64,000 nucleotides of DNA from Salinigranum rubrum. GTDB lineage: Archaea; Halobacteriota; Halobacteria; Halobacteriales; Haloferacaceae. The position numbers were made by a program, and so were the translations under genes. The notes beneath the pieces are model-generated. The model searched no databases, had not been told where the DNA came from, and saw only the letters and a program-made list of their open reading frames with translations. The stretch lies in the NCBI RefSeq assembly GCF_002906575.1, contig NZ_CP026309.1, positions 4,154,001-4,218,000 of the forward strand, read 5' to 3'. Below are positions 57,899 to 61,556 of the stretch, in pieces; position 1 is the stretch's first letter, and every line of letters begins with the position of its first letter.

Positions 57899-58543
57899 AT
57901 GAATACCTCGTTCGGGACGTATCTCGTCACACAGTCGAACCACACGAACGGGCGGTCGACGGTCGACGTCGTCCGGGCCGCACTGGCCGGCGGCGTCGAC
58001 GTCGTCCAGTTGCGCGAGAAGCACGTCACGGCCCGCGAACGGTTGGCCGTCGGCCGGGAACTCAGGCGGTTGACTGCCGAGGCCGAGGTCCCGCTCGTGG
58101 TCAACGACCGCATCGACCTCGCATCTGCGGTAACGGCCGACGGCGTCCACCTCGGTGACGACGACCTCCCCGTCGACGTCGCGCGCGAGCAACTCGGCCC
58201 CGAGGCGCTCATCGGCCGGTCCGTGTCGACCGTCGAGGGCGCGACGCGCGCCGAAGACGCCGGTGCGGACTACCTCGGTGTCGGCGCGGTGTACGAAACA
58301 GGCTCGAAGGAGACGAAGCCCGAACAGACCGAAATCGGCCTCGACCGGGTTCGAGCGGTGTGCGAGGCGGTCTCCATCCCGGTCGTCGGCATCGGCGGCG
58401 TGACGCACGAACGGGCGGGCGATATCGTCGAAGCAGGGGCCGACGGCGTCGCCGTCGTCTCCGAGATTACGGGAGCTGACGACCCCGAGGCGGCCACCAG
58501 ACGGCTGGCCGAGGCAGTGGCGGCAGGGAGGAACCGACGATGA
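57899..58543 (+). CDS. thiE: thiamine-phosphate synthase
   Basis: It joins the pyrimidine and thiazole moieties to thiamine phosphate. The 214-residue TIM barrel has VDVVQLREKHVTARERLAV, VPLVVNDRIDLA, ADGVHLGDDDLP, GADYLGVGAVYETGSKE and VVGIGGVTHERA, all family motifs. The stop overlaps the thiM start (ATGA). The 105 bases upstream contain no room for a large riboswitch; a TATA-like gttatta lies 40 bases before the start. Confidence 0.95.
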   Translation: MNTSFGTYLVTQSNHTNGRSTVDVVRAALAGGVDVVQLREKHVTARERLAVGRELRRLTAEAEVPLVVNDRIDLASAVTADGVHLGDDDLPVDVAREQLGPEALIGRSVSTVEGATRAEDAGADYLGVGAVYETGSKETKPEQTEIGLDRVRAVCEAVSIPVVGIGGVTHERAGDIVEAGADGVAVVSEITGADDPEAATRRLAEAVAAGRNRR

Positions 58544-59364
58544 CGGCGAGAGAAATCGACCTCGACGCGGCGTTGACGGCAGTGGAGGCGGACCAGCCAC
58601 TGGTGAACGCCCTGACGAACGAGGTGACGGTCAATCAGGTGGCGAACGTGATTCTCCACTGGGGCGCGTTGCCGGTGATGTCCGACGACACCCGGGAGGT
58701 CGCCGACATGGTGAGCATCGCCGACGCCCTCCTGTTGAACATGGGGACCGTGAGCGAACGCGGCGAGGAGGCGATGGTCACGGCCGGCGAGGCGGCGAAC
58801 GACCACGGCGTTCCGGTCGTCGTCGACCCCGTCGGCGTCGGTGCCACGCCGACGCGGTCACGGGTCGCCGAACGACTCGTCACCGAACTCGACGTCGCCG
58901 TCGTGAAGGGGAACTACGGCGAGGTGACGGCGCTCGTCGGCGACGACGCCGAGGTGCGCGGCGTCGAATCGGTGGGCGAGTACGCCGACATCGCCGAGAC
59001 GGCCATCGCGTGCGCCCGAAAGGTCGACGCCGTCGTCGTCGCCTCCGGTGAGGTCGACATCGTCGCGACGGCCGACGCCGCCTTCGAGGTCGACGCGGGG
59101 CACCCGATGATGGGGCAGGTCGTCGGAACGGGCTGTATGCTCGGCGGGACGCTGGCGGCGTTCGCCGCGGCCCTCCCGAACGAGGAGGCCGCGCTCGCCG
59201 GGACCGCCGCGTTCGGTCTCGCCGGGGAACTCGCGGCCGACGGCGCGTTCGGCGAGTACTTCGGGCCGGCGAGCTACGAGACGGCGTTTCTGGACGCCGT
59301 CGCGGGACTCTCGGAAGCTGACCTCCCGGACGCGACAGGTCGAATCGACCAGGTCGTCGAGTAA
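58540..59364 (+). CDS. thiM: hydroxyethylthiazole kinase
   Basis: It phosphorylates hydroxyethylthiazole for ThiE, allowing thiazole salvage. The 274-residue product has LVNALTNEVTVNQVANV at the substrate site, MSDDTREVADM, VVVDPVGVGATPTR, VVKGNYGEV and GQVVGTGCMLGGTLAAF with the catalytic Cys. It is paired with thiE; the hairpin element follows after about 80 bases. Confidence 0.95.
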   Translation: MTAREIDLDAALTAVEADQPLVNALTNEVTVNQVANVILHWGALPVMSDDTREVADMVSIADALLLNMGTVSERGEEAMVTAGEAANDHGVPVVVDPVGVGATPTRSRVAERLVTELDVAVVKGNYGEVTALVGDDAEVRGVESVGEYADIAETAIACARKVDAVVVASGEVDIVATADAAFEVDAGHPMMGQVVGTGCMLGGTLAAFAAALPNEEAALAGTAAFGLAGELAADGAFGEYFGPASYETAFLDAVAGLSEADLPDATGRIDQVVE

Positions 59365-59443
59365 CCGACCACGAGGCGGGGCGGTCGTCGAGCACACCGA
59401 CCGGCGGAGAGCGGCCGAAGACCGCGAACCGCCGGGGGTTTTT

Positions 59444-59520
59444 GACCCACCTTTTTGCGAGGTGGGTCCCCGCAGGCCGCCGGAGGCGGCCGAGGAGACC
59501 CGCCGACGTAAAAAGGTGGG
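59444..59520. repeat. nested inverted-repeat element between thiM and the P450 gene
   Basis: Outer arms CCCACCTTTTT (59446-59456) and AAAAAGGTGGG (59510-59520) are perfect and 53 bases apart. An inner perfect hairpin GGCCGCC/GGCGGCC (59475-59481, 59485-59491) lies between. The left arm can instead pair locally: GACCCACC (59444-59451) with GGTGGGTC (59461-59468). Thus two RNA folds exclude each other. It ends 38 bases before the P450 ATG. It may be a terminator, an attenuator-like switch, or a dispersed haloarchaeal repeat; I recall similar stretches in other haloarchaeal intergenic regions but cannot check. Confidence 0.65.
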
Positions 59521-59558
59521 GCCGAACGCTTCATGTCTCTCCAGTCGAAGGAGGGGTA

Positions 59559-60933: not shown

Positions 60934-61556
60934 GTGACCCGCCTCACCGCGCTCGTCCACGGTGTCGTCCTCGCCGTTGGACTCATCGTCGCACTCGGCC
61001 CGCAGAACGTCTTCGTCTTTCAGCAAGGGGCCACCCAGCCGCGCTTTCGCCGGGCGCTCCCGACAGTCGTCACCGCGTCGCTGTCGGACACGCTCCTCGT
61101 CTCGCTCGCGGTGTTTGGCGTCTCCGTCGCCGTTCTCGGGAACGCGTGGCTTCAGCAGGGGTTGTTCGGAATCGGCGCGGTGTTTCTCGTCTACGTCGGC
61201 TGGCAGGTGTACCGGAGTCCGGCGCTCTCCGTTTCGGGCGGCGAGGCGCTCTCCCCCGGAGGCAGGTCGGCTTCACCGCCGCCGTCTCGCTCTTCAACCC
61301 CCACGCGATTCTCGACACCGTCGGCGTCATCGGGACGAGCGCGCTCGCGTACGAGGGCGAGCAGCGGTGGGTGTTCGCCGGGAGCGTCGTCACCGTCTCG
61401 TGGCTCTGGTTCGTCTCGCTCGCCGCGAGCGGGCGACTGCTCGGTCGTACCGAATCGGACGCCGCGGACGCGGTGCTCGGCAAACTCGATGCGGCCGCCG
61501 CGCTCGTCATCTGGGGCGTCGCGGGCTACATGGCCTATCGATTCCTCACCCTCTAG
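60934..61556 (+). CDS. LysE/ArgO-type amino-acid exporter (one-base frameshift)
   Basis: It exports basic amino acids. Repaired length is 207 residues with six helices. The first frame has ALGPQNVFVFQQG, the family signature, and TASLSDTLLVSLAVFGVSV. After the five-C run 61253-61257 the family continues in another frame as PRRQVGFTAAVSLFNPHAI and ends with WGVAGYMAYRFLTL. One more C joins the halves. The start is GTG 60934. The stop overlaps the convergent 2H gene by four bases. Confidence 0.85.

Follow-up and report, generated by a model that had tools for sequence, protein, structure and literature searches.

The window analysed here, a 64,000-nt stretch of the Salinigranum rubrum genome, contains a 79-nt imperfect palindrome (59444-59522) between two plus-strand genes, which we take to be thiM (ORF at 58540..59364) and a cytochrome P450 gene (59559..60896). 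This raises the question of whether the palindrome is a regulatory switch of the P450 gene, a dispersed repeat, or a signal of another kind. The P450 ORF is listed from an upstream TTG, its start being read from the sequence, and five relatives of it were found. Together with a thiE-like gene, thiM forms a pair (57899-59364) that is located between a helicase-like gene and the P450 gene, all of these names being our own assumption. In congener G003, the P450 gene is apparently directly behind the end of the helicase gene. A search of 40 genomes gave thiM matches in 19, including its own genome (three weak and partial), and none in three congeners. Behind the P450 gene, the frame 60934-61556 starts like a presumed LysE-type exporter and apparently continues in another frame at 61146, a possible frameshift.

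The palindrome between thiM and the P450 gene

The sequence-only reading had proposed that the left arm CCCACC (59446-59451) pairs either with a nearby GGTGGG (59461-59466) or with a distant partner, around a perfect inner hairpin, and we observe all three pairings. The near one is part of an 8-bp local hairpin, GACCCACC/GGTGGGTC (59444..59468 on the plus strand, 59444-59451 with 59461-59468), which is rare in the family described below. In the distant one, the left outer arm CCCACCTTTTT (59446..59456, plus strand) matches the right outer arm AAAAAGGTGGG (59510..59520) perfectly in the minimum free energy (MFE) fold, in which the apical hairpin GGCCGCC-GGA-GGCGGCC occupies 59475..59491. The two hairpins are thus both present, as had been claimed, but they are unbalanced as mutually exclusive alternatives: the single long hairpin of 59444-59522 reaches -60.9 kcal/mol, compared to -46.7 kcal/mol when the local hairpin is forced, a cost of about 14 kcal/mol. 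RNA folding, which had been suggested as a check, places the long hairpin beyond chance on both strands. For the 111-nt stretch 59430-59540, the MFE of the plus strand is -68.2 kcal/mol, compared to a shuffle mean of -45.7 kcal/mol (z -6.17, none of 200 shuffles equal), and the minus strand gives a z of -3.77 (none of 200 shuffles as good).

The 77-base unit originally delimited (59444-59520) corresponds to a real element that was drawn too small. On the minus strand, the family core, as defined by our covariance model R1, spans 59437..59520 and reads XX-ACC-TTTTT, hairpin, AAAAA-GGT-GG-GTC-AAAAA (cmsearch 72 bits, E 6.6e-12, model positions 1-83 of 83, this copy being itself among the 40 sequences building R1). 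In addition, folding predicts a second hairpin at 59401..59435, which on the thiM strand precedes both T-tracts. That first T5 tract (59439..59443, plus strand) is a candidate termination point of thiM transcripts, judging by the T-stretch terminators of Haloferax as described in an excerpt of the source (PMC7237163). The second T5 tract of the thiM strand is at 59452..59456, and the T5 tract of the minus strand (AAAAA on the plus strand) is at 59510..59514, where about half of the relatives have the equivalent tract behind a stop codon. The whole 64 kb contains 11 runs of at least five T or five A, three of them inside the element.

The downstream end of the element meets a promoter-like block, GGCCGAACGCTTCATG (59520..59535, plus strand), which is identical before the P450 start in congener loci L024 and L038, carries one substitution in L008, and has a related block, CCGAACGTTTAA, ahead of the P450 gene in three Halorubrum loci. 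This conservation, together with what we take to be the form of haloarchaeal promoters, suggests that GGCCGAACGCTTCATG is the P450 promoter. Because the block is downstream of the element, the element is probably outside the P450 leader.

Distribution and structure of the family

The existence of a family around this element, its structure and its bias toward gene ends are well supported. The search for further copies in the same genome, also suggested earlier, found none by plain DNA similarity, which matched the window copy as the only place (on both strands, as expected of a palindrome). Model R1 gave five candidates in this genome at E ≤ 1, three of them at E ≤ 0.001: the window copy at 5.1e-10, two others at 6.8e-5 and 9.0e-4, and two weaker ones. 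By eye, three of the four candidates other than the window copy start directly behind a stop triplet.

Among 60 genomes, plain similarity gave matches in 21, several with the full anatomy and some partial, the partial ones (flank or GC-rich hairpin alone) not being counted as copies. A strict pattern matched 147 of 195 Halobacteriales genomes, compared to no match for the reversed control pattern, and R1, built on 40 copies and used at E ≤ 0.001 with at most 23 candidates scored per genome and stricter filters, matched 166 of 195. In 294 genomes of the phylum (15 candidates scored in each, the share of genomes outside the order not being stated), the 42 genomes matched by R1 were all Halobacteriales. 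What stands of the dispersed, mobile-like repeat proposed in the sequence-only reading is therefore its dispersal at many different genes; mobility in the strict sense, as transposition by an identified enzyme that leaves clean empty sites, is not supported by these data. In a plasmid search, the window copy gave one match only, in Deinococcus, which we take as chance, and a composite family sequence matched five haloarchaeal plasmids, four of which were examined. A loose pattern found at least 120 stretches in viral sequences; among 80 listed loci, those with a GC content above 50% or a paired XX did not look like the element, which says nothing on viral carriage either way. When 12 loci were compared with Rfam, the one hit above its gathering score was a flanking tRNA, and among the papers listed in literature searches, including one on sequence letters, there was no description of the element.

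On the family strand, which is the minus strand of the window, the anatomy is XX-ACC-T5, a hairpin whose internal mismatches are conserved, and A5-nnT-X'X'-nnn-A5, frequently followed by a second hairpin; by eye, a hairpin occurs at the position of this second hairpin in many of 67 right flanks. The 132-133 copies counted here are strict-pattern finds with their flanks, mostly picked from listed places, with 20 each from genomes G114 and G133. Since the strict pattern demands T5 and A5, both are present in all 133 copies by construction. XX and X'X' are Watson-Crick partners in 127 of the 133 copies, through seven pair combinations, whereas 2000 shuffles average 48 such copies and never exceed 65.

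Conserved pairing is also seen in an alignment of 40 sequences, scored on a structure that was drawn by hand from those same 40. Its covariation score is 0.237, compared to 0.094 when shuffled and 0.046-0.073 when slid; 83.2% of the cells pair, compared to 73.9% and 43-52%, respectively; and 14 of 22 pairs have changes on both sides, compared to 9.9 when shuffled. The pair counts of the outer helix are lowered because MAFFT shifts the register of the T-tract in part of the rows. RNAalifold gave no structure on a first, mixed alignment.

By eye, the hairpin arms appear to be made of two words, CTTCGTCGGGT and CGAGGAGYGGT, each with near variants, and many copies combine both. In a few copies the arms look symmetric or turned around, which would suit a core that flips; the loci noted for this arrangement of words are L144, L145, L148, L141 and L090. 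A subfamily, ACCTTTTTAT(T/C)GCGAGC..GCTCGATAAAAAGCTCGA(C/T)C, flanked by CTCGCATA(C/G)G, recurs in several genomes of genus g44 (L067, L070, L075, L079).

Gene ends, proposed termination and the alternative readings

With gene neighbours assigned by our own simple codon-composition gene caller, the ACC motif lies 0-5 nt behind a stop codon of the family strand in 46 of 132 copies and within 19 nt in 67, compared to 1.2% and 3.9%, respectively, of the intergenic strand-positions in 400 kb of G133. The corresponding fractions are 35/86 and 46/86 when G114, G133, the plasmids and the S. rubrum genome are excluded, 3/20 and 5/20 in G114, 7/20 and 15/20 in G133, and 1/2 and 1/2 in S. rubrum; none of the four plasmid copies is within 19 nt of a stop. 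Five of the 132 copies are inside a called ORF and 127 outside. The neighbour pairs that were classified (122) comprise 54 convergent, 59 tandem and 9 divergent ones, compared to 22% convergent and 23% divergent among all G133 gaps, or 17% and 29% among those of at least 80 bp. T5 runs in general are hardly enriched at gene ends in the 400 kb of G133: of 354 called stops, 24 have such a run in the next 60 nt, and 20 starts have one in the preceding 60 nt. The element itself is behind four of these 354 stops.

We tentatively favor, at a confidence slightly short of even, the reading of the element as a two-sided T-tract terminator and insulator that also spreads as a repeat. In Haloferax, T stretches ending at C terminate transcription, T5C reaching 95% in a reporter, according to an excerpt of that study (PMC7237163). 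An RNA polymerase moving along the family strand would end at the T5 tract just behind the stop codon, and a polymerase coming from the opposite side would meet the second hairpin and two T-tracts. The window copy would then be both a thiM terminator, ending transcripts at about 59439-59457, and a P450 insulator, shielding the promoter at 59520-59535. The long hairpin might act behind both T-tracts as a cruciform or protein-bound block, which is the least certain step. Stop-codon proximity, the small number of divergent sites, the paired XX/X'X' and the persistence of some orthologous sites between species all support termination. Against it, roughly every second copy has no stop directly before it, nine of 122 are nevertheless between divergent genes, and T5 is hardly enriched at the gene ends of G133. 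In addition, no minus-strand gene ends at the window copy. The thiM stop is 74 nt before the first T5 of this copy.

One orthologous site, Salinigranum L005, has the palindrome at the same stop in G000, G002 and G003, and lacks it in G001. Its XX/X'X' pair is CC/GG in G000 and CG/CG in G002. The T-tract is GCTTT, with AAAGC opposite, at this site in G003, and GTTTT in another S. rubrum copy (L368), which suggests that pairing may matter more than the T-tract.

The stronger of the two main rivals, although we consider it somewhat unlikely, is a REP- or MITE-like non-autonomous mobile repeat, whose hairpin, as single-stranded DNA or cruciform, would be a substrate of a host nuclease or recombinase, gene ends being tolerated or preferred. 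Similar cores are indeed found at different genes, and the plasmid copies are away from stops. Within G133, alignments between copies mostly extend over 120-270 bp (72-88% identity), compared to mostly 70-100 bp for copies of other genomes aligned with the G133 element, which suggests that the family also spreads or homogenises within genomes, something that a plain terminator does not need. Closely spaced copies on the same strand, with starts 142-201 bp apart (G085:C1:2763329-2763679, G046:C1:466658-466923, G115:C21:14581-14794), point the same way. So does one gene end of genus g44, where by eye four of 17 orthologous loci carry the element, which in two of the four lacks part of its right side (an 18th genome, G199, is without a full orthologue). 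At the Salinigranum site L362/L363, common to G001 and G002, the cores are in opposite orientation by eye, again as a mobile repeat might leave them.

Nevertheless, a search for Y1_Tnp (PF01797) at E ≤ 0.001 found none in 12 element-rich genomes (G039, G059, G063, G068, G072, G080, G093, G144, G150, G154, G164 and G170, each with at least 15-23 R1 matches, some assemblies being incomplete), and G008 and G188 show the reverse, with 10 and 9 Y1_Tnp matches and no R1 match. An enzyme of the IS200/RAYT type thus seems not to be required, and we rejected dependence on it on this co-occurrence pattern. Neither a target duplication nor a clean empty site was observed, among species too far apart for such a test. 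Moreover, the stop-codon proximity, the orientation and the kept mismatches exceed what mere tolerance would give. Separately, we observe a second repeat of about 80 bp (L135, around 1702-1790), approximately 190 bp downstream of the element start, which has dozens of matches in g44 genomes.

A broader hypothesis, unlikely in our estimation, would see in the family an ancient haloarchaeal module that spreads by itself, without need of IS200-type enzymes, sits behind stops and provides transcript-end signals for both flanking genes. Its core would turn over and invert while the paired arms and the fixed mismatches stay, and the repeat would have been domesticated as an order-wide terminator system.

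The other main rival, which we consider quite unlikely, is that the element instead acts in the 3'-UTR as an RNA, with hairpins that shield the 3' ends of mRNAs, undergo processing or are protein-bound, and with selection on the family-strand transcript. This would account for the covariation and for the half of the copies that start near a stop codon. It would also account for the U-G combination that 26 of the 40 sequences have at columns 26-55, which would be a wobble on the family strand and a mismatch on the other strand. Nevertheless, if T stretches act as in the excerpted Haloferax study (PMC7237163), transcription may already end at the T5 tract behind the stop, ahead of the hairpin. 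The Rfam result for 12 loci, with only the flanking tRNA above the gathering score, also speaks against an RNA element of this kind.

Quasi-palindromes can undergo template-switch correction, and the covariation might come from such switching, one arm being copied onto the other, with no structural selection. The symmetric copies L144, L145 and L148 (by eye) are what this would produce. Opposite the CC of ACC, however, the 133 copies have TC (69), GC (23), CG (18), TG (15), CC (4), GG (3) and TT (1). The family is thus characterised by one or more mismatches at this place, since full GG occurs in only three copies, including that of the window. Mismatches are therefore kept where correction should erase them, and we consider this explanation highly improbable.

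Finally, an attenuator or riboswitch-like switch of the P450 gene, which the sequence-only reading had seen in the geometry of two exclusive pairings, is hardly credible and was rejected: both pairings exist in the window copy, but the promoter-like block lies 3' of the element, local pairing in runs of at least 6 bp is found in just 7 of 133 copies (the window copy included) and gives the far weaker fold, many copies are at unrelated genes, and R1 matches none of the six haloarchaeal P450 loci that carry the promoter-like or the related block (the bacterial locus L012 set aside), so that neither a transcribed leader nor conservation before the gene was found. At thiM loci of relatives, R1 likewise matches 0 of 15, the weak matches L057-L059 being left out.

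Implications and comparison with known systems

Should the terminator and insulator reading hold, the ends of many haloarchaeal genes would share a homologous, structured and two-sided signal that was found neither in Rfam (12 loci) nor in the literature searched. Archaeal termination beyond bare T-tracts would become testable, and haloarchaeal genetics would gain candidate insulators. The spread of such a module in the absence of an IS200-type enzyme would also call for an explanation.

Bacterial REP sequences are mobilised by the REP-associated Y1 transposase (RAYT), and details of their placement at gene ends are part of the general background on them. The 12 element-rich genomes without PF01797 at E ≤ 0.001 do not fit a REP mobilised in this way, whereas the presence of a short palindrome in many extragenic copies per genome, with 29 strict-pattern matches in G133 as opposed to just five R1 candidates in the S. 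rubrum genome, does fit a REP in the wider sense. As described in an excerpt of the source (PMC12306157), REPs resemble the element in being short extragenic palindromes with internal mismatches and many copies. The element differs from them in having no visible dependence on a Y1-type enzyme, in its T5/A5 flanks, and in being confined to one archaeal order in the genomes searched.

The PATEs and SMRs of Haloquadratum, in the excerpted account of PMC3119063, are also short, non-coding haloarchaeal elements bearing palindromes or repeats. According to the same excerpt, PATEs derive from IS605 ends and have near-terminal palindromes. For the element, co-occurrence with Y1_Tnp gave no sign of an IS605 link or of TnpA dependence, which would tend to set it apart from PATEs, and it is biased toward stop codons.

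A possible functional parallel is provided by the T-stretch terminators of Haloferax volcanii. In the part of that study considered here (PMC7237163), these have a T stretch followed by C, as the element does, and some hairpins are found near termination sites. A T stretch soon behind the stop would be expected of haloarchaeal T-stretch terminators; for the ACC-T5 of the element, the distance to a family-strand stop is at most 19 nt in 67 of 132 copies, with T5 itself imposed by the pattern. Whereas the Haloferax terminators, in the same excerpt (PMC7237163), are simple T stretches or upstream hairpins, the element is a conserved 80-nt palindrome between two T-tracts, repeated from gene to gene.
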